From Alphaproteobacteria bacterium (GTDB taxonomy: Bacteria > Pseudomonadota > Alphaproteobacteria > Micropepsales > Micropepsaceae), in NCBI GenBank assembly GCA_028865545.1, contig JAGWJY010000021.1:1-52675 (forward strand): a DNA stretch of 52,675 nucleotides. Reading direction: 5' to 3'. The notes beneath the pieces were generated by a model. That model was not told the DNA's origin and ran no database searches. It worked only from the letters and a program-made list of their open reading frames with translations. Position numbers and translations under genes: made by a program. This document shows, in pieces, positions 4,286 through 27,739 of this stretch (positions are counted from its first letter, which is position 1; each line of letters begins with the position of its first letter).

Positions 4286-5340
4286 CCGCACTGTGCCGTC
4301 ATTTCGGTGTTTGCGGAGGCTGTGCCTACCAGGATATGGCGGATGCGGAATACCGCGCGCTTAAGCGCGCATTGGTCGTTGATGCCCTTTCGCGCCATGG
4401 TGTCGAGGCTCCGATTGGCGACGTCGTCGAAGTTCCCCCAGCGACGCGGCGGCGCGCTTCGTTGAAGGCCAGGAAAGGCGAGGGCGGCGTGCACCTCGGC
4501 TTTCATGCCGCGCGGTCGCACGACATTGTCGATATGCAGGAATGCCTTGTTCTGTCGCCGACACTGTTCAAGGCGGTTTGTGGAATACGCGAAATGCTGA
4601 CGGTGCTGCTGCGGCCACAGGAGACGGCGGAGTTGCATCTCACCGAGACGGACATCGGCGTCGACCTTGCGTTCCGCTGGAAGCGGCCGAACGACACCGC
4701 CACGCTCGCTGAATTGGCGCGCTGGGCGTCGAAGTTGAAGCTGGCGCGGATTTCGGCGCACAACGAAACCGTGATCGAGTTGGCGAAGCCCTCCGTTCGC
4801 CTCGGCAAGGCGGACGTGTTGGTTCCGTCAGATGCCTTCCTCCAGCCGACGCGCGAAGGCGAAGCCGTGTTGCAGGCCTTTGTCCGCGATGCGCTGTCCG
4901 GCGCCAAACGCGTCGCCGATCTTTTCGCCGGCTGCGGGACGTTTGCGTTGCCGCTGGCAGAAACAGCCCGCGTCCATGCGGTGGAACTCGATGGACCCAT
5001 GCTGGAGGCTTTGGCTGCCGCAGCTCGGGCGATGTCGGGCTTGAAGCCCATCACCGTCGAGAGGCGCAACCTGTTCCAGCGACCGCTCGGCGAATCCGAA
5101 CTCGTCCAATTCGATGCTGTCGTGCTCGACCCACCGCGCGCCGGCGCTCTGGCGCAAACACAGGCTCTGGCGCGCTCCAAGGTGAAGCGCATCGCCTATG
5201 TCTCCTGCGATGCCGACAGCTTCGCACGCGACGCCCGCGTCATGATTGATGGCGGCTTACGCCTGGTAAGCGTTGTTCCCGTGGACCAGTTTCTCTGGTC
5301 GTCGCATATTGAGCTCGTAGCTTCGTTCGAGCGGGCTTGA
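4282..5340 (+). CDS. RumA/RlmD-type RNA (uracil-5-)methyltransferase
   Basis: 352 residues. The N-terminus carries the iron-sulfur ligands C5, C11, C14 (HFGVCGGC) and C88, the CX5CGGCXnC pattern of the RumA family. The SAM-binding motif is DLFAGCGTFALPLA (213–226), followed by DPPRAG (283–288) and YVSCD with the catalytic cysteine C309. It should make 5-methyluridine in rRNA or tRNA by a covalent Cys adduct. There is no N-terminal TRAM domain, and the protein is shorter than E. coli RlmD (433). It overlaps tlyA by 4 bases and is followed 4 bases later by the C13 peptidase gene. The target position cannot be assigned from sequence. Confidence 0.9.
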   Translation: MTALCRHFGVCGGCAYQDMADAEYRALKRALVVDALSRHGVEAPIGDVVEVPPATRRRASLKARKGEGGVHLGFHAARSHDIVDMQECLVLSPTLFKAVCGIREMLTVLLRPQETAELHLTETDIGVDLAFRWKRPNDTATLAELARWASKLKLARISAHNETVIELAKPSVRLGKADVLVPSDAFLQPTREGEAVLQAFVRDALSGAKRVADLFAGCGTFALPLAETARVHAVELDGPMLEALAAAARAMSGLKPITVERRNLFQRPLGESELVQFDAVVLDPPRAGALAQTQALARSKVKRIAYVSCDADSFARDARVMIDGGLRLVSVVPVDQFLWSSHIELVASFERA

Positions 5341-5344
5341 AGGG

Positions 5345-6082
5345 ATGCGTCTGGCGTTGGTGTGCGTGGCCGTGTTGGCTGCGTTATGCGAGCCCGCTTT
5401 TGCCGCGGGCAATTTCTCCGACTGGGCGGCGATCGTCGTGGCGGGCGACTGGCATGCGCATGACGGTGCGCCGAGCGAAGTGTTCGACAACGCACGGCGC
5501 GACATCACCAACGAGTTGGTCCAGATCGGCTTCTCGCCCGCCAACATCCTGCAGTTTTCGGTGCGACCCAACCGCTATCCCGCCGCGGATCTTCAGGCCT
5601 CGACGGCGCAAAACATCTCCGACGGCATGTGGGACCTGTCGAACCAGGCCGATGGCGGCTGTCTTGCCTATTTCACCTCGCATGGTTCGGGTAGCGGTAT
5701 CGTTCTGGGGCAGAGCGATCTTTCGCCCCAGCAAATGAGCGACATTGTCGACAACGCCTGCGGCACGCGGCCGACCGTGGTGATCGTGTCGGCGTGCTAT
5801 TCGGGCATTTTCGTCCCCGCACTGCAGGCGCCGAACCGGATTGTGCTCACCGCGGCGGCGGCCGACCGCGCCTCGTTCGGCTGCGGCCAGTCGGACAAAT
5901 ACACCTACTTCGATGCCTGTGCCGTGCAGTGGCTGGCGCGGGCCGGCGATTTCCGCGATTTCGGCAAGGATGTGATCGCTTGCGTCGATGCGCGCGAAAA
6001 GAAGGACAAGGTAGGGCCGCCGTCGGACCCGCAGTTTTACATCGGGGCACACAACCACGGCACGTTCCCAAGCTGGAAATAG
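5345..6082 (+). CDS. Secreted C13 family (legumain/caspase-like) cysteine peptidase
   Basis: 245 residues with a cleavable signal peptide (about 1–21, ending AFAA). The catalytic dyad of clan CD peptidases is visible: His in YFTSHGSGSG (H113) and Cys in VVIVSACYSGIF (C151), each after a hydrophobic strand. The pattern fits the bacterial C13 family, which share the fold of legumain and GPI transamidase subunit Gpi8. The mature protein should be periplasmic or anchored by its own partners. It lies 4 bases after the RNA methyltransferase stop, so it is probably expressed with the dxs operon. Its substrate is unknown. It ends 7 bases before the convergent SPFH gene. Confidence 0.85.
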   Translation: MRLALVCVAVLAALCEPAFAAGNFSDWAAIVVAGDWHAHDGAPSEVFDNARRDITNELVQIGFSPANILQFSVRPNRYPAADLQASTAQNISDGMWDLSNQADGGCLAYFTSHGSGSGIVLGQSDLSPQQMSDIVDNACGTRPTVVIVSACYSGIFVPALQAPNRIVLTAAAADRASFGCGQSDKYTYFDACAVQWLARAGDFRDFGKDVIACVDAREKKDKVGPPSDPQFYIGAHNHGTFPSWK

Positions 6083-6089
6083 GGTCGCG

Positions 6090-7007
6090 CTACTTCTTCG
6101 CCTCCACCGCCTCGTTGCTGGAGATGATCGCGGTGCGCAACTGGCTGGAGATATCGGTCATACCGCCGGGCGCGTGCGGAGTCAGGATCACCTTGCTGCC
6201 CGCTGACACACCGATTTCCTTCAACGTGTCGAAATACTGCGTCAGCAGCACGAGGTTCAGGACTTCATGCTCGTTGACGCTGCTGACCTTGTCGGTAAAC
6301 GCCGCGATGGATTCGCGCAATCCGTCGACGATGGCGCGGCGCTGCTTGGCGATGCCTTCGCCCTGAAGCCGTTTGGATTCCGCCTCGGCCTCGGCGTTCT
6401 TCACCACCAGGATTTTGTTGGCTTCGCCCTTGGCCGCGGCGGCCACCTGCAGGCGTTGCTGGGTCTGGATCTCGTTCATCGCCGCCTTGACGTTGTCGGC
6501 GGGATTGACGTCGGTCACCAGCGCGTTGGGAATCTCGAAGCCGTAGATCTTCATCGAGACATCGAGTTCGCTTTTCACGGCGCTGCCGATGTCGTCCTTC
6601 TTCTCGAACACTTCGTCGAGCACCATCTTCGGAACCTTGGCGCGCACCACGTCAAGCACGTAAGAGCTGATTTGGTCGACGTGGTCCTGCAGCTTGTAAT
6701 AGGAATCCGCCTCGCTGCCTTCCACGACGCGGTACTGCACGGCGATCGACACTTTCACAAAGACGTTGTCCTGTGTCTTGGTCTCGACCTCAACCATCAA
6801 CTGCTGGACGCGCAGCGAAACGCGCTGCACGACGTGGTCGATGAAGGGAACTTTGATGTTCAATCCCGGGTTCGCGGTCCGCACATAGCGCCCGAAGCGC
6901 TCGACAATGGCCCGGCTCTGTTGTTTGACCGTGAAGAAGCTGCCGAGCAGCGTCGCGATGATAAGAAAACCAACCAATGCGACCAGGACGGCGACAATCA
7001 TATCCAT
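6090..7007 (-). CDS. SPFH/band-7 membrane protein, HIR-like
   Basis: 305 residues: one N-terminal membrane helix (about 3–25), then an SPFH domain (VERFGRY...NPGLNIKVPFIDHVV..VSLRVQQL) and a coiled-coil flotillin tail rich in A, E and K (AAMNEIQTQQRLQVAAAAKGEANKI...). The blocks SLRVQQL.VE.ETKTQDNVFVKV, SYVLDVVRAKVPK, RRAIVDGLRESI and LLTQYFDTLKEIG match, by memory, plant hypersensitive-induced-reaction (HIR) proteins more closely than HflK/HflC or QmcA. Such proteins form oligomeric scaffolds in membrane microdomains. The start is the ATG at 7007, which has AAAGGA upstream. It follows the small membrane protein gene by 22 bases and is last in the fabI–aroC run. Confidence 0.88.
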   Translation of the reverse strand: MDMIVAVLVALVGFLIIATLLGSFFTVKQQSRAIVERFGRYVRTANPGLNIKVPFIDHVVQRVSLRVQQLMVEVETKTQDNVFVKVSIAVQYRVVEGSEADSYYKLQDHVDQISSYVLDVVRAKVPKMVLDEVFEKKDDIGSAVKSELDVSMKIYGFEIPNALVTDVNPADNVKAAMNEIQTQQRLQVAAAAKGEANKILVVKNAEAEAESKRLQGEGIAKQRRAIVDGLRESIAAFTDKVSSVNEHEVLNLVLLTQYFDTLKEIGVSAGSKVILTPHAPGGMTDISSQLRTAIISSNEAVEAKK

Positions 7008-8712: not shown

Positions 8713-9533
8713 CAGTCCCCGTTCTTCCCCACAACGATGTCGGGAGCGTCTGGCGCTTTCATGCCGATGATATGATAGCCGCCGTCGACATGCATGCACT
8801 CGCCGGTAACGGCTTTGCCCAGATCTGACAACAGGAACAGTGCCGCACTGCCCACTTCGCCGATCGTCACCGTGCGGCGCAGCGGCGAATTGTATTCGTT
8901 CCATTTCAGGATGTAGCGGAAATCGCCGACGCCCGATGCCGCCAGCGTCTTGATCGGCCCGGCCGAGATTGCATTGACGCGGATCGCGCGCTTGCCAAGG
9001 TCTTCGGCGAGATAACGCACGCTGGCTTCCAGCGCCGCCTTGGCCACGCCCATCACATTGTAGTGCGGCATCACTTTTTCCGCGCCGTAATAGGTGAGGG
9101 TGACCATGCTGCCGCCGTTGTTCATCAGCTTCTCGGCGCGCTGCGCCACGGCCGTGAACGAATAGCAGGAGACGTTCATCGTGGTGGCGAAATTCTCCGG
9201 CGTGGTGTCGACATAACGGCCCTTCAACTGTTCCTTGTCGGAGAAGGCAACGGCATGCACCAAGAAATCGAGTCCGCCCCAAACCTTTTCGATCTCCGCG
9301 AAGGTCGCATCGATCGATGCTGCGTTGGTCACGTCGCAGTCGAGCACAGCCGCCGGCTTGAGCGGCTCCACCAGTGGCACCACCCGTTTCTTGAAGGTTT
9401 CGCCCTGATAGGTGAACGCCAGTTCGGCGCCGGCCGCGTGCAGGCTCTGGGCGATGCCCCAGGCGATCGACCTGTCATTGGCGACGCCCATGATGAGGCC
9501 GCGCTTGCCTGCCATCAGGCCATCGAACGCCAT
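8712..9533 (-). CDS. fabI: Enoyl-[acyl-carrier-protein] reductase (NADH)
   Basis: 273 residues, last reductive step of each type-II fatty acid elongation cycle. It is a divergent SDR: nucleotide-binding [18 protein letters not shown] (about 12–29), the conserved HAVAF after the fourth strand, and the FabI active-site Tyr-x6-Lys in YNVMGVAK, preceded by [16 protein letters not shown] site lies before the ATG. It is the first gene of a minus-strand run with aroC, and diverges from the CHASE3 genes. FabI is the target of triclosan-type inhibitors; nothing in the sequence marks resistance. Confidence 0.96.
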
Positions 9534-9775: not shown

Positions 9776-10423
9776 ATGACGCTGGTCCGGCGGGGCCATC
9801 TGCGCCATGCGGCCACGCCCCTGTTGGTGGGAGCGGTCACGCTTCTCATCTCGGCCGTCATTCTGCTCGGTGTCAACGTCACCACCATGCGCAAGAATTT
9901 CGCCTGGGTGCAACAGGCCGATGACGTGTTGCTGCAAATATCGGCCGTGGAGTCGGGCGTGGTGGGCAACGAATTGACGGTTCGTGGCTACGCCTTGACC
10001 GACGATCCGAGATTTCTGGCTTATCAGAAGAGCAACCGGGAACGGGTCATCGGCTCGATGAACACGCTCGCCACGCTGGTATCGCACGACGCCTCGCAAA
10101 CGGCGCGTTTTGGCAGCCTGCGCAAAATCGTCAACAGGCATTCGGCCATTTTTGGAGCGCTGATTGCTCTTGGCCCCGGTCATGCCAAGCAGGTGGCCGC
10201 GGCCATCGTCGATCCGGCGAACCGCGCCGTCATGGACGAGATGCGGCGGCAGCTGAGCGCTTTCCAGACCGCGGAGCTGCGACTGCTTGCCGAGCGGCAG
10301 GCCACTGCGGCGCGCCAGGCCTCGCATACCTACGACACGGCCGTTGTGATCGTCGTCGCCGCCTTTCTGCTCGGTGGGCTGGGTATGCTGGTTGCGCAAC
10401 ACGAGCGCGGCCGAAACGCCTAG
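9776..10423 (+). CDS. CHASE3-domain membrane protein without output domain (copy 1)
   Basis: About 215 residues: a membrane helix near 16–38 (LLVGAVTLLISAVILLGVNV), a helical extracytoplasmic region with the CHASE3 hallmark [17 protein letters not shown], and a second helix close to the C-terminus ([17 protein letters not shown]), leaving only about ten cytoplasmic residues. CHASE3 domains normally sit before HAMP, histidine kinase or GGDEF modules; none is present. The next gene (10533–11240) is an ungapped paralogue. Start is uncertain: ATG 9776 has GGAAGG just upstream; ATG 9743 would add 11 residues. Function unknown; it may be a sensor subunit that partners another protein. Confidence 0.8.
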   Translation: MTLVRRGHLRHAATPLLVGAVTLLISAVILLGVNVTTMRKNFAWVQQADDVLLQISAVESGVVGNELTVRGYALTDDPRFLAYQKSNRERVIGSMNTLATLVSHDASQTARFGSLRKIVNRHSAIFGALIALGPGHAKQVAAAIVDPANRAVMDEMRRQLSAFQTAELRLLAERQATAARQASHTYDTAVVIVVAAFLLGGLGMLVAQHERGRNA

Positions 10424-10532: not shown

Positions 10533-11240
10533 ATGTTCGCCCAGTTCATCCCGGCCGTCGGCATCGATATGCGACAAGTGTTCGGTAGGTTTCGACATCT
10601 GACGTTGCTGTTGCAGCGCGGCCATTTGCGCCAGCTGGGCGTTCCGACGCTCGTCGCCGCCGTCGCCTTGCTGCTGTCTGCGATCATGCTCCTCAGCGTC
10701 AACGTCTCTGCGCTGCGTGACAGCCTGAGCTGGGTTCAGCGCTCGGACGACGTGCTGATGCATCTGTATGACGTCAACAACGATGTGATCGGAAATGAAA
10801 TGTCCAGTCGCGGCTATGCGCTGACGGACGATCCCTCGTTCTTGAGGTTTCAACGTGAGGAGCAAAGAGATCTTGCCGTCGTGATGGCCGAACTTCGTCC
10901 GCTCGTCGCCCGTGATCCGTCGCAATCGAAGCGTTTCGAGGACATGCGCAAGGCCATTGCGGAACGCATGCACTTCTTCAAGCGGCTCACGGCTCTTGGT
11001 CCCAATCACGCCAAGGAGGTCGGAGAGGCCATCAGTGAACCCGCCAACCGGGAGAGCATGAGAAGGGCAAGGCTGGCCGTCGATGCGTTTCGCGCCGGGG
11101 AGGTGCAACTGCTTGCAGAACGTCAGGCCGTCGCCGCGCGGCAGGCGACACGGACTTTTATGCTCGCCGTCGGCATCGTCTCGCTTGCGTTCCTCTTGGG
11201 CGGATTGGGCTTCGCGATGTCCGTTCACGGGCGCGCTTAG
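10533..11240 (+). CDS. CHASE3-domain membrane protein without output domain (copy 2)
   Basis: 235 residues with the same plan as the upstream gene: RGHLRQ before helix 1 ([20 protein letters not shown]), WVQRSDDVL, the CHASE3 motif [17 protein letters not shown], a conserved [20 protein letters not shown] segment and [17 protein letters not shown] before helix 2. It aligns with copy 1 without gaps over about 200 residues and by eye about half the positions are identical, so the pair is a diverged tandem duplication. It ends a few residues after helix 2 with no kinase or cyclase. The start has AAAGG upstream. Its last bases overlap the convergent dnaJ-like gene by 4. Confidence 0.8.
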
Positions 11241-15299: not shown

Positions 15300-15368
15300 C
15301 GGCGTTGTCCGCCGCGCTGAACCGGCTAATATGGGACCGTTACCAACACCCGTCCGGAGACTCGCCCC

Positions 15369-16424
15369 ATGAAAATGACCTTCCGCTGGTATGGCGACGG
15401 CGATCCGGTGCCGCTGGATTACATCCGCCAGATTCCCGGCATGTACGGCATCGTCTCCGCCGTCTACGACGTGCCGGTGGGCGAGGTGTGGCCGGTCGAA
15501 AAAATTCGGACGCTCAAAACCAAAATCGAATCCCACGGCCTGAAGTTCGAGGTCATTGAATCCGTGCCGGTGCACGAGGACATCAAGCTGGGACGGCCGA
15601 CGCGCGACCGGCTGATCGCCAATTACGCGCAGACCGTGCGCAACCTGGCGCAGTGCGGCCTCAAGGTGGTCTGCTACAATTTCATGCCGGTGTTCGACTG
15701 GACCCGCACCATCCTGGCGATGAAGCTCGACGACGGCTCCTCGACGCTCGCCTTCGACGCCGACGAGGTGGCGCGCATCGATCCGGAACAGGGCATCAAC
15801 CTGCCGGGCTGGGACACCAGCTACAAGCCCGCAGAGTTGAAGGCGCTGCTCGCCGAATACCGCGGCATCGGCGAGGCGCAGCTCTGGGCGAACCTGGAAT
15901 ATTTTCTGAAGGGCGTCATCCCCGCCGCGCAAGAATCCGGCATCAAGATGGCGATCCACCCCGACGATCCGCCGCGTCCGATCTTCGGCCTGCCGCGCAT
16001 AGTCAAGAACGTCGCCGATCTGCGCCGCCTGCTCGCCATCGTCGACGTGCCGGAGAACGGGCTAACGCTGTGCGCCGGTTCACTGGGTGCCGACATCGGC
16101 AACAACATCGTCACCATGGTGCAGGAGTTCGCGGGGCAGGGGCGCATCCACTTCGCCCATATCCGCAATGTGAAGGTGGACGAGAAGGGCAATTTTCACG
16201 AGACGGCGCACAAATCCGATTGCGGCTCGCTCGACATCGCCGGCATCGTCAAGGCCTATTACGACGCGGGCTATGAAGGTTATGTGCGCCCCGACCATGG
16301 CCGCATGATCTGGGGCGAGACCGGCAAACCTGGCTACGGCCTCTACGACCGCGCGCTGGGCGCCGTCTACATCAACGGACTGTGGGAAGGCGTGGCGAAG
16401 GGCGAGGAGAAGTCAGCACACTGA
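15369..16424 (+). CDS. uxuA: Mannonate dehydratase
   Basis: 351 residues. It dehydrates D-mannonate to 2-keto-3-deoxygluconate in the glucuronate branch of hexuronate breakdown. The UxuA family is recognised by the N-terminal [43 protein letters not shown], the [15 protein letters not shown] block, the metal-site regions [18 protein letters not shown] and FAHIRNVK, and the C-terminal [14 protein letters not shown]. Length is close to the roughly 350–400 of the family. No kdgK, kdgA or uxaC lies near, so the rest of the pathway must be elsewhere. It suggests use of plant-derived uronates. Confidence 0.94.
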
Positions 16425-16432
16425 CTTTTCTG

Positions 16433-16493
16433 CCCCCGTTCACGGGGGAAGTGTCCACCGAAGCTGCGTAGCGGCGTAGGTGGACGAAGGGGG
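16433..16493 (+). repeat. 61-nt direct repeat, copy 1 (left of CPBP gene)
   Basis: Begins with the hairpin CCCCCG-TTCA-CGGGGG and continues through GTGTCCACCGAAGCTGCG to GGACGAAGGGGG. A second copy in the same orientation lies at 17344–17404 with 5 mismatches in 61 positions. The copies bracket the CPBP protease gene. The element looks like a REP/MITE-like intergenic repeat; it also follows uxuA by 8 bases and may aid termination. Confidence 0.8.
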
Positions 16494-16622
16494 CAGGGCG
16501 GCAAACGCCGGCCGCTTGCCGGCCCTGGCGCCGGCGGCTACGGTTTCGCGGCAGAGGGGGCGTGCCGGCCGCGCCGGACGCGGTTTCGGCTCCGCGCGTT
16601 TCCCGTCTGGCCGGAGGGCTGC

Positions 16623-17318: not shown

Positions 17319-17343
17319 GGCGCGGCGACGGGCTTTTTTTCTT

Positions 17344-17404
17344 CCCCCGTTTACGGGGGAAGTGTCCACCGAAGCTACGAAGCAGCGTAGATGGACGAAG
17401 GGGG
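17344..17404 (+). repeat. 61-nt direct repeat, copy 2 (right of CPBP gene)
   Basis: Same element as at 16433–16493: hairpin CCCCCG-TTTA-CGGGGG, then GTGTCCACCGAAGCTACG and GGACGAAGGGGG. The inner substitutions partly preserve the GCTNCG..CGTAG symmetry. It lies 26 bases after the CPBP stop. Confidence 0.8.
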
Positions 17405-23741: not shown

Positions 23742-24419
23742 ATGATTGATCTCTACACGGCCGCAACGCCCAACGGCTACAAGGCCTCGGTCGCTCTCGA
23801 AGAACTGGCGCTGCCCTACGAGGTTCATTACGTGCAGCTCGGCAAGCTGGAGCAGAAGCAGGACTGGTTCCTGAAGATCAATCCCAACGGCCGCATTCCC
23901 GCCATCGTTGATCGCGATGAGGATAACTTCGCCGTTTTCGAGTCCGGCGCCATCCTGGTCTATCTGGCGGAGAAGACCGGCAAGCTGATGCCCAAAGACG
24001 TAAAGGGCCGCTCGCAGGTGATGCAATGGCTGATGTTTCAGATGGGTGGCATCGGCCCGATGATGGGCCAGGCAAACGTCTTCTTCCGTTACTGGCCGGA
24101 GAAATATCAGGCCGCTATCGATCGCTATCAGAACGAGTCGCGCCGCTTGTTCGAAGTGCTGAACGGCCATCTGAAGGATCATGAATATCTGGCCGGCGAC
24201 TATTCCATTGCCGACATCGCCAATTGGTGCTGGGCACGGACCTACGAATGGTCCGGCGTGTCGGTAGACGGCCTGGACGATCTGCAGCGCTGGCTGAAGC
24301 TGATCGGTGATCGGCCTGCAGTACAGCGCGGCATACAGGTACCGAAAAAGCCCGAGGTCACTGACAAAGACGACGCCAGCAAGCGCATTGCTCAGGTCCA
24401 GACGATACTGCAGCGCTAA
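23742..24419 (+). CDS. Nu-class-type glutathione S-transferase (YghU/YfcG-like)
   Basis: 225 residues. It starts [22 protein letters not shown]; the TPNGxK motif is the hallmark of Nu-class and Ure2p-like GSTs, which use a conserved Asn/Thr and often have disulfide reductase activity with two glutathiones. Later blocks [30 protein letters not shown] and [12 protein letters not shown] are typical. It is tandem with the previous GST but of a different class. Its stop codon abuts the relic PAP2 3' end on the opposite strand. Confidence 0.88.
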
Positions 24420-24477
24420 AACCAGGGCAGCATCAGCTTCGGAAACAGATAAATCAGCGCTTCGCGGGCGCCGATCA
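24416..24477 (-). pseudogene. Relic of a PAP2 phosphatase 3' end (direct repeat of 25772–25833)
   Basis: 62 bases matching the last 20 codons of the PAP2 gene at 25772–26392, with only two mismatches. On the minus strand it still reads [14 protein letters not shown] and a TAG stop, which overlaps the GST stop codon. Upstream, the similarity ends in unrelated sequence at 24478. It shows that a PAP2 gene once ended here and that the acyltransferase block now separates this tail from the intact gene. Confidence 0.9.
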
Positions 24478-24568
24478 AACCGCCGTGGAGCTACTGACAG
24501 GGAACGCCGCTCAATTCAATTAACCCTTCATAGACCGGCTCCAAATTAGACTCTGTTTTTTGAGGTCG

Positions 24569-25741
24569 ATGCGCGTGAGTCTTCTTCGCAGTCCCGGCGA
24601 AGTGACTGGAGGGCGCCGAATAGCCGTTCTTGACGGCTACAGGGCGCTGGCCATCCTTCTGGTGCTCGCGTTCCACTACACGGTCCGCTTTGCGCCGCCG
24701 CTTCAGCGGCACGCACATTTTCCCGCGGGATCGATTTTCAGCGGCGCCGCGCCTCTAGACTATGGCTGGGCGGGCGTGGAATTGTTTTTCGTCATCTCGG
24801 GATTCGTAATCCTGATGACGCTTGAACGCTGTCGCAGCGTAGGTGAATTCGCGCTGAGAAGGTTCGCGCGGCTGTGGCCGATGCTGGTGATCGCGGCCAG
24901 CATGACGTCGCTGGTGGTGTACCTGATCGGCCCGCCGGACTGGCGCGTGAGCTGGCCGGACTATCTCATGAGCATCCTGTTGATCGAGCCGTCGCTGCTT
25001 TCCCATTTTTGGGCGGGGGCATCGTTCAAATGGGTCGATGACGCCTATTGGAGTCTTTTTGTCGAAATACGCTTCTATGCTCTGGCGGCCGTTGTCTATC
25101 TGGCTGCCGGCAGGAACTTCGTCAGATACTGGCTGGTGCTGCAAGGCGTCGCCTTTGCGGCGTTTCTCGTGGTGGTCCTGACGGCCTTCCGTGCGTATCC
25201 GTATTTGTCGCTGGTGCTCTTCCCCGACTATATGCCCTATTTCACGGTCGGCATCTGCGTCTACGAGTGCTACAGCCGCGGTCCTCTCAACAAGATCGCC
25301 GCGGCGGGAGCGGTGATGGCCGCCGGCATGGCGCTTTTCAACGCCTATTACGGTCTTTTCTTCGCGATCGGGGGGACGCCGCACGGTAACGCCGTGGTGA
25401 ACCTGCTTATCTTCTCCTTGTTCCTGTTGTTCGTTATCGATCATCCGATCGTTCGTATATTTGCGTCGCGGCCGATGGTGAGGCTGGGGCAGGCCTCCTA
25501 CTCACTCTATCTGATCCACCAGGTGATTGGGGTTTGCATCATGCGTGTTTGCATCGGGCTCGGAGTGCCGTATCTGATCGTCCTGCCTGCCACGGTCTGC
25601 GCGATGATCGCCTCGGCATGCCTGTTGTTTTATCGCGTGGAAGTCCCGATCAAATCCTGGATTTTGTGCTGTTGCGAAAGCAAGGTTGCGCTGTTCGAAC
25701 GGCGGTTGCCGTGGTTGAGCTACACGACGAGTGGCGGCTGA
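24569..25741 (+). CDS. Acyltransferase 3 family membrane O-acyltransferase
   Basis: 390 residues with about ten membrane helices. The acyltransferase-3 (OafA/NodX-type) signature is clear: VLDGYRALAILLVLAFHY with the conserved His, then GWAGVELFFVISGFVI and the FALRRFARLWPML block (R-x10-H region of the family). SYSLYLIHQVIG marks the last helices. Such proteins transfer acetyl or other acyl groups to O-antigen, exopolysaccharide or Nod factors from the periplasmic side. Start chosen at ATG 24569; TTG 24560 or GTG 24575 are possible. It lies inside the segment between the two PAP2 3' ends and thus looks inserted. Confidence 0.87.
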   Translation: MRVSLLRSPGEVTGGRRIAVLDGYRALAILLVLAFHYTVRFAPPLQRHAHFPAGSIFSGAAPLDYGWAGVELFFVISGFVILMTLERCRSVGEFALRRFARLWPMLVIAASMTSLVVYLIGPPDWRVSWPDYLMSILLIEPSLLSHFWAGASFKWVDDAYWSLFVEIRFYALAAVVYLAAGRNFVRYWLVLQGVAFAAFLVVVLTAFRAYPYLSLVLFPDYMPYFTVGICVYECYSRGPLNKIAAAGAVMAAGMALFNAYYGLFFAIGGTPHGNAVVNLLIFSLFLLFVIDHPIVRIFASRPMVRLGQASYSLYLIHQVIGVCIMRVCIGLGVPYLIVLPATVCAMIASACLLFYRVEVPIKSWILCCCESKVALFERRLPWLSYTTSGG

Positions 25742-25771
25742 CGTCGCATCGCGCCACAGGCTGCAAATACT

Positions 25772-26392
25772 CTAGAACCAGGGCAGCATCAGCTTCGGAA
25801 ACAGATAAATCAGCGCTTCGCGGGCGCTGATCAGGCCGATGCCGGCACCGACAAAGACGTCGCTGAGAAAATGCGCCGTCAGCAAGGCGCGCGTCAGTCC
25901 GAGCCAGAGAGCGATGGCAAACCACAGGATCGCCAGCTGCGGCCACAGCGCCGTGGCGATCACCGCCACGCACATGATCGTCAGCGCATGGCCGGAGGGG
26001 AACGAGTTCCAGTCGAGATCGAAGCCGAACAGCTTGAAGCCGTGCAGATTCATCTCGAGGTCGTCGCGCGGCCGGCGCCGGCCGAGCACCAGCTTGATGC
26101 CGTGCAGGATCGCACTGCCCAGCGCCAGGCTGGCGATGAAGGCGAGGGCGCATTGCAGCGCCAGCCGGATGGTGGCGTTGTCGCCGATCCAGCGCAGCCA
26201 TGCCCAGCTGAGTGCCGTCACCAGGCAGGCAGCCAGCAGCCAATGCGCGGCTTTGGCCATGTGCGTGGTTCTGGCGAGGAAGCGGTGGAACCCCGCGCCA
26301 ATATTGTCGTAGAGGAAATGCGTCGCGGCCCGGTCAACGGTCACGCACGCTAGTCCACCGACGATGAGGAAAAGGCCAACCCAAAGCAGCAT
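25772..26392 (-). CDS. PAP2 superfamily membrane phosphatase
   Basis: 206 residues, about six membrane helices. All three phosphatidic-acid-phosphatase motifs are present: KLVLGRRRP (K100–P108), SFPSGH (131–135) and [13 protein letters not shown] (R168, H174, D178). It removes phosphate from lipid phosphates such as phosphatidate, undecaprenyl-PP or LPS-linked phosphates; the exact substrate is open. The start is ATG 26392; no better upstream start is in frame. The last 20 codons are duplicated at 24416–24477. Confidence 0.88.
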
Positions 26393-26503
26393 GACGACTG
26401 CTTGCCGCGACGGAAGTCCGCTGTCAAATCCTCCTGTCGTCGCTGGCGGGGTGGTCGTCGCGCCGCTAGAGTCGGGCCCGCGATCGCTGACGAGGGAAAT
26501 CTC

Positions 26504-27739
26504 ATGGATTTCGATTATTCGCCACGCCAGAAGGAATGGTTGAGGCGTGTCGGCGACTTCATGGCCGAGCATATCCACCCCGCTGAAGCCGCCTACGCCG
26601 CGCAGATGGACGAGGCGCGCGAGCGCGGCAATCCCTGGATTGTGGTGCCGGTGGTCGAGACGTTGAAGGCCGAGGCGAAGAAGCTCGGCTTGTGGAACCT
26701 CTTTTTGAACGAGAGCGAAAACGGCGCCGGGCTGACAAACCTGGAATATGCGCCGCTGGCCGAGCTGATGGGCCATGTCGGCTTTGCCTCGGAGGTCTTC
26801 AACTGTTCGGCGCCCGATACCGGCAACATGGAAGTCCTCGAGCGCTATGGCAGTCCCGAGCAGCAGCGGCTTTGGCTGGAGCCATTGCTCGCCGGCGAAA
26901 TCCGCTCGGCTTTCGTCATGACGGAACCGGGGGTGGCCTCATCCGACGCGACAAACATCTGCACACGCATTGAGCGCCACGGCGATCACTATGTGATCAA
27001 CGGACGGAAGTGGTGGTCGTCGGGGCTGGGAGATCCGCGCTGTAAGATCATGATCGTCATGGGTAAGACCGACCCGGAAGCCAACAAGCACAGTCAGCAA
27101 TCGCAGATACTGGTTCCGGTCGGCACGCCCGGCGTTTCGATCAAGCGCATGCTGCCCGTCTTCGGCTTCGACGACGCGCCGCATGGCCATGGCGAAGTCG
27201 TCTTCGAGAACGTGAAAGTGCCGGTGGAGAATGTTATTCTGGGCGAAGGCCGCGGATTTGAAATCGCGCAGGGCCGCCTGGGGCCGGGGCGTATTCATCA
27301 CTGCATGCGCACCATCGGCGCCGCCGAGCGCGCGCTCGAACTCATGGTCAGGCGCCTGCTGTCCCGCGAGGCATTCGGGAAGAAGATCGCCGAGCATTCG
27401 GTGTGGGAACAGCGCGTCGCCGAAGCGCGCATCAACATCGACATGTGCCGGCTTCTCACTCTCAAGGCCGCCGACATGATGGACAAGGTGGGCAACAAGG
27501 TGGCGCGCACCGAAATCGCCATGATCAAGGTCGCGGCGCCGCGCATGGCGCTCAAAGTGGTCGACGACGCGATACAGGCCTGGGGCGGCGCCGGCGTAAC
27601 CTCGGACTCCGGCCTGGCGAAGCTCTATGCCGGCCTCAGGACGCTGCGTCTGGCCGACGGACCGGACGAAGTCCACAACCGTACGATCGCGCGATTGGAA
27701 TATGGAAAATATATGGAGCGGCCGGGCCGTAAAGGCTAG
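26504..27739 (+). CDS. Acyl-CoA dehydrogenase (ACAD10/11-like)
   Basis: 411 residues. FAD flavoprotein that introduces a trans-2,3 double bond into acyl-CoA. Motifs: N-terminal helical domain with [27 protein letters not shown] (FAD/substrate block), [12 protein letters not shown], and the C-terminal [36 protein letters not shown]. The N-terminus ([16 protein letters not shown]) and the [14 protein letters not shown] loop resemble the ACAD10/11 group, which are fused to an APH-type kinase in animals; such a kinase lies at 29034–30119. GAGGGA precedes the ATG. It is convergent with the histidine kinase gene, overlapping by 4 bases. Confidence 0.92.

Follow-up and report, generated by a model that had tools for sequence, protein, structure and literature searches.

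How did a membrane acyltransferase gene come to lie between two genes, GST2 and PAP2, that in the nearest relatives converge on overlapping stop codons, and how did both survive its arrival? The locus lies in a window of 52,675 nucleotides, the whole stretch of DNA that was analysed, from a Rhizomicrobium genome. It contains the following features:

23742..24419, plus strand: GST2, a glutathione S-transferase (Pfam GST_N), the left neighbour, native to the locus.
24416..24482, minus strand: left copy, a displaced relic of the PAP2 3′ terminus, 63/67 identical to 25772-25838.
24483..25771, no strand: unique inserted block of 1289 bases, missing from the empty sites of the relatives G031 and G021.
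24569..25741, plus strand: AT3-type membrane acyltransferase (OafA-like), 390 aa (PF01757, E 4e-26).
25772..25838, minus strand: right copy, which still forms the 3′ terminus of intact PAP2.
25772..26392, minus strand: PAP2-family membrane phosphatase, intact, 206 aa (PF01569, E 1e-18).
26504..27739, plus strand: acyl-CoA dehydrogenase, the right neighbour of PAP2.

The PAP2 3′ end is duplicated at this locus. A first-pass annotation of this DNA had reported that the last 62 bases of PAP2 (25772–25833) are repeated at 24416–24477 with two mismatches, and this description is exact (97% identity; self-BLAST E 6e-26). Taken to its full length, the direct repeat (24416-24482 / 25772-25838) measures 67 nt, is 94% identical and has a spacing of 1356. 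Its mismatches, at indices 3, 56, 62, and 63 of 67, all lie near the edges and leave 52 consecutive identical bases. The relic does end in its own TAG, as the annotation had read it (CTA at 24416-24418, minus strand), and this codon overlaps the GST2 stop, TAA, at 24417-24419. The annotation had also allowed for a third genomic source of the 62-base segment, but none emerged from a search of the genome itself in which 40 of 45 candidates were scored. Indeed, only two places in this genome (3.4 Mb, 101 contigs) match the PAP2 3′ end at E ≤0.001, and a 27-base part of the repeat core has zero exact matches in IMG/VR. Past the 67 bases, homology is not significant on either side when the ends of the insert are compared with the GST2 tail or the PAP2 interior (six tests, p 0.06-0.89), and an 18-base match between 24359-24376 and 25846-25863 was taken as chance (E 0.048). 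The right copy contains an 8-base dyad (25809-25831; expectation 0.018 per 67 bases) that was considered as a recombinase core; it is missing from the left copy and therefore carries no weight in that role. Terminator-like matches on the minus strand of both repeat copies were likewise set aside, as they fall inside the PAP2 coding sequence or its relic.

The simplest history suggested by such a repeat, and the one that the annotation had proposed, is that PAP2 once ended against the GST gene and that the acyltransferase arrived later, in which case an empty site in relatives should show the GST gene joined straight to a PAP2 3′ end. Two genomes of the genus Rhizomicrobium, G031 and G021, have this arrangement: their GST2 and PAP2 genes are convergent, with overlapping stop codons and nothing in between, and these empty sites support the proposed order of events. 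The PAP2 proteins of G031 and G021 are 88% and 78% identical to that of the window, and their GST2 orthologues, which occupy the same place, are 95% and 82% identical, respectively. In the PAP2 tree these two are the nearest rows, with support of 100/99 for the window plus G031 and of 96/94 when G021 is added. They are the nearest relatives in the sense of the nearest with the locus assembled; the genome closest by GST2, G430 (98% aa identity over 157 residues), has a contig that breaks off within GST2 and yielded no PAP2, so that it is uninformative on the empty site. The acyl-CoA dehydrogenase gene lies beside PAP2 also in G031; in G021 it was not found beside PAP2.

Across the genus, a PAP2 match at E 1e-30 or better is present in 62 of 69 genomes with the window included, leaving 61 other loci. 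The acyltransferase is beside PAP2 in none of these 61, two of which are cut by a contig end (within 46 bases), and a search of the surrounding sequence, in most cases 4.5 kb to either side, gave no match to it at E 1e-5. The next gene 3′ of PAP2, counted from the match listing and limited to the ten genes searched for, is TadA at 27 loci, TerC at 20, GST2 at nine, and GST1 at three; where it is GST2, the two genes lie within 18 bases in eight cases and 94 bases apart in one. The GST2–PAP2 junction is one that sees genes come and go, and compared with these 61 loci the acyltransferase is there only in this genome. At three loci further genes were recorded near PAP2: the GST2–PAP2 interval contains a DDE transposase, DUF1275, and TerC in G440 (L109, C1, 1423-4593) and a LuxR-type regulator with TerC in G432 (L114, C5, 2477-4407), and in G022 (L135, C10, 6890-7504) a phage-integrase-family gene (PF00589) lies ~1.8 kb 3′ of PAP2, past TerC.

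The insertion is carried by one MAG only, a single draft genome, and its 52-base identical core could mislead a short-word assembler. An assembly artefact of the metagenome bin is nevertheless extremely unlikely: four bases distinguish the copies, and even an artefact would have had to start from an acyltransferase that already had PAP2 ends on both sides.

The repeat also bears on the age of the gain. At fourfold sites the five flanking genes differ from those of G031 by 0.32-0.44, whereas the two repeat copies differ at 4/67 bases. Had the duplication predated the split from G031, the relic alone would be expected to have accumulated ~11-15 changes in its 67 bases, by arithmetic on uncorrected distances that assumes a relic free of selection since that split. 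Because the copies have diverged much less than neutral sites have, the acyltransferase was probably gained more recently than the G031 split, provided that gene conversion has not kept the two copies similar. The same comparison weighs against the opposite history, in which the acyltransferase and the repeat are ancestral and recombination between the repeats removed the gene from the relatives, restoring the empty site exactly. Loss by that means would be both easy and precise, but the copies are too similar for an age beyond the G031 split, again barring gene conversion, and junctions across the genus are empty or of other kinds (acyltransferase at 0/61), so that ancestral presence is very unlikely.

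The block itself (24483-25771) contains one ORF with a family match, for which the best start is the ATG at 24569 with GAGG upstream; four further ORFs of at least 80 aa, located in the block or extending into it from the right, match no Pfam family. Against PF01757 (Acyl_transf_3) the encoded protein scores 92.3 bits, with a cut-off of 31. It also matches the PHROG families 3333 (O-acetyltransferase, E 4e-37) and 6705 (O-antigen acetylase, E 5e-13); searches of NCBIfam (at E 0.001) and of PDB sequences (at E 0.01) gave no match. The AT3 motif set given in the available portions of PMC7448272 and PMC9833829 comprises R-X10-H, RXXR, FFXISG, and SXXXY. All four are present, as R25-H36, RFAR at 98, FFVISG at 73, and SYSLY at 310; the last of these motifs is loosely defined and has further matches at 114 and 128. 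In addition, the protein has 10 hydrophobic segments, as in a family with about 10 membrane segments. Judged by these features, the gene in the block encodes a full-length membrane acyltransferase of the AT3 type (OafA-like). It shares with Salmonella OafA and OafB, as the accessible text presents them, an AT3 membrane domain with the R-X10-H and RXXR motifs; unlike in those proteins, no SGNH domain was matched in its 390 residues, where PF01757 is the only domain. It likewise shares the AT3 family with the serotype-converting phage O-acetyltransferases (PHROG 3333 and 6705); phage genes were not seen in the block.

By membership of this family, the product would move acyl groups, probably acetyl, from cytoplasmic acyl-CoA across the inner membrane to an envelope sugar, and it may in this way alter the cell surface. 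The gene is on the same strand as GST1 and GST2 and begins 149 bases after the GST2 stop. A scan of 24300-26600 revealed neither a plus-strand terminator nor a sigma-70-like promoter, and the acyltransferase may be cotranscribed with GST1–GST2.

Where the gene came from was approached through composition and homologues. The annotation had proposed to compare GC content and codon use of the block with those of its flanks, but composition does not mark it as alien: its GC of 59.1% is at the 10th percentile of the genome (GST1 is at the 9th and GST2 at the 6th), its GC3 at the 53rd, and its codon adaptation at the 41st. These values are within the range of the genome, and the foreign origin therefore rests on absence in relatives. 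The closest homologue found, 51% identical, is in G440, another Rhizomicrobium genome, at a different place, between genes that we take to be NfuA-like and HtpX-like; the next closest are 35-36% identical. No direct repeat of at least 20 bases surrounds the G440 homologue (L108:3500-8000), which is flanked by one 21-base inverted pair, 86% identical (L108 4384-4404 / 6727-6747). With this genome counted in each case, the acyltransferase has matches in 11 of the 69 genus genomes at E 1e-8 and in 5 of 385 genomes drawn from the class at E 1e-20. Pattern scans of genome_contigs and IMG/VR, which reach close relatives only, gave zero relatives of the protein. A phage or plasmid donor was considered and rejected, as only distant protein homologues were found there (4 phage and 34 plasmid records, all <60% identical), those in phages being 29-34% identical over ~40% of the length. 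At the DNA level, a 57-base match occurs in two phage records and the block has no match in the plasmid collection; a wider query matched 122 plasmid records, and among the matches listed (8 of 122) all lie in GST2. Thus no donor genome was found, the best homologue being the one at 51%.

Collectively, the locus clearly records the gain of one gene, well bounded and of a known kind. We consider it very probable that a 1.29-kb block with one AT3 acyltransferase was added at the PAP2 3′ end. The last 62-67 PAP2 bases are present on both sides of the block, and as a result GST2 and PAP2 both stay whole. Most insertions at two overlapping stop codons would be expected to damage one gene or the other, and the duplication would have spared both. 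The gain is therefore a datable one, of a single gene, with an empty site in the nearest relatives and a footprint that shows how two overlapping genes survived.

Of the entry routes considered, the one that genomic islands take matches the anatomy best, and we put it at about an even chance. Under this proposal, the incoming DNA would have carried its own copy of the PAP2 3′ end, which would have recombined with the chromosomal 3′ end and restored PAP2, and the former PAP2 end would have become the displaced fragment beside GST2. A recombinase would have acted from elsewhere or been lost with the rest of a larger element. Like the tyrosine-integrase islands of the Islander study (PMC4383910, in the portion available), the locus has an intact gene, a displaced 3′ fragment, the same order and orientation of the two, and cargo in between. 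Indeed, the 3′ fragment is downstream of its intact target gene and in the same orientation, and the site is empty in G031 and G021. Unlike those islands, the block is 1.3 kb long, has one gene and no integrase that could be found, and uses the protein-coding PAP2 as its site. None of the five ORFs matches an integrase, the acyltransferase being the only one with a Pfam match, and the block is therefore not classed as an island but only as working like one. The Islander filters, as the available text of PMC4383910 gives them, reject candidates that are shorter than 2 kb or have no integrase. Among the other 61 PAP2 loci no PAP2 fragment is as good (their best self-matches are ≤43 bases, with E values of 0.001 or worse); PAP2 is therefore not used recurrently as a site. 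A transposon or IS element does not fit the data, as the five ORFs include no transposase match and the duplication is 62-67 bases long; moreover, no inverted repeat of at least 14 bases joins the two block ends.

The central position of the 52 identical bases bears on another possible route, in which a DNA circle from another genome or locus, with the acyltransferase and a PAP2 3′ stretch, was integrated by one homologous crossover and needed no site-specific recombinase. A donor copy that differed at the edges would give this distribution of mismatches; the run-length probability is 0.009 for four random mismatches in 67 bases and 0.07 for two in 62, the ends of the repeat having been chosen by extension. 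However, no acyltransferase was found next to a PAP2 end among the 69 genus genomes apart from this one, and 62 bases are short for efficient homologous recombination. We therefore regard the circle as possible but doubtful. A model of this kind was proposed for Arabidopsis transposed genes flanked by genic direct repeats (PMC2869330, available portion), which resemble the present case in that each is a single gene between direct repeats, and these repeats correspond to the target site as found in a sister species. They differ in coming from plant genomes, and in the same portion of PMC2869330 the mechanism is the authors' suggestion.

Similar footprints were found elsewhere in the genome. A scan of 1.41 of 3.41 Mb (41%, in 81 pieces) for direct-repeat pairs of at least 35 bases and 85% identity, 0.3-12 kb apart within one piece, gave ten local pairs, three of which consist of a gene 3′ end beside a short block. 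These are at PAP2, a tRNA-Val gene, and lepA, where the repeats start 0, 2, and 1 bases from the gene end, respectively. At tRNA-Val (L187, G000:C50), a 51-base identical 3′ fragment lies ~1.15 kb from the gene (15326-15376 / 16523-16573), and the block between them has one 283-aa ORF with no Pfam match, and no integrase. At lepA (L215, G000:C24), a 106-base, 93% identical copy of the 3′ end lies ~465 bp downstream (10220-10323 / 10788-10893), with no convincing gene inside the block; this copy adjoins a helix-turn-helix gene, presumably HigA-like.

The position of these repeats, within 0-2 bases of a gene end at three loci, is not predicted by a further explanation of the PAP2 locus, illegitimate insertion, in which a staggered break or template switch captured a fragment and fill-in duplicated ~62 target bases. 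Such an event would fit the finding of no recombinase and of no inverted repeat of at least 14 bases at the block ends, and selection could be expected to keep only those insertions that duplicate the PAP2 end, as others would damage an overlapping gene. However, no Ku match was found in this genome, which is 95.7% complete, by a search whose control was positive in 1 of 14 genomes, Bacillus subtilis, and classical bacterial end-joining is therefore unlikely. On balance, we judge illegitimate insertion to be improbable.

With respect to the island-like route, the relatives provide further cases at the same two genes. In G021 (L281, C3, 2300-9379), an island comes after the tRNA-Val; its genes include a Phage_Mu_F-like one and an integrase (PF00589, E 2e-21), the latter directly before a closing tRNA-Val 3′ fragment (6753-6803). 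Beyond this island is a 2.5-kb block with three listed ORFs (an AraC-type regulator, DUF4386, and one without a match) and no integrase, closed by a further tRNA-Val fragment (9331-9379). G423 has a lepA fragment of 35 bases at ~1.1 kb from lepA. Other relatives weigh against this route. The tRNA-Val stretches examined in G031 (4.0 kb) and G430 (3.5 kb) contain no second fragment, and in G031 the far flank of the tRNA-Val block falls on a different contig. The lepA junction has ~150 bases between matches in G419 and ~880 in G439, compared with ~840 here, and no lepA fragment was found in either of the two. The blocks at PAP2, tRNA-Val, and lepA in this genome and at tRNA-Val in G021 would make up a putative class of tiny, integrase-less Rhizomicrobium islands, some with one cargo gene, bounded by a duplicated gene 3′ end and dependent on recombinases in trans, a grouping that we offer only tentatively. 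If it is real, island finders that require an integrase and a length of at least 2 kb would miss such blocks. Moreover, if the PAP2, tRNA-Val, and lepA footprints share one cause, integrase-less single-gene islands would be an under-counted route for the spread of genes such as those for surface-modifying enzymes.

The seven other repeat pairs were not counted as 3′-end duplications. One of them (L178, G000:C5, 4597-6221) reflects the start of tandem paralogues: three small paralogous ORFs lie in tandem there, with the first 50-60 bases and the ribosome-binding site in common. Two, L211 and a pair in the window (16426-16493 / 17337-17404), were set aside as dispersed repeats. The window pair is 68 bases long and 91% identical, surrounds a CAAX-protease-like (Rce1-like) gene, and is probably a dispersed repeat because a third copy is present in the scanned part of the genome. 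The remaining four are L201, L219, L255, and L232 (G000:C46), where 52-base, 90% identical direct repeats (4800-4851 / 5814-5865), assigned to no gene, surround a single DUF4386 gene (E 1e-39), a family that is also part of the cargo beside tRNA-Val in G021.
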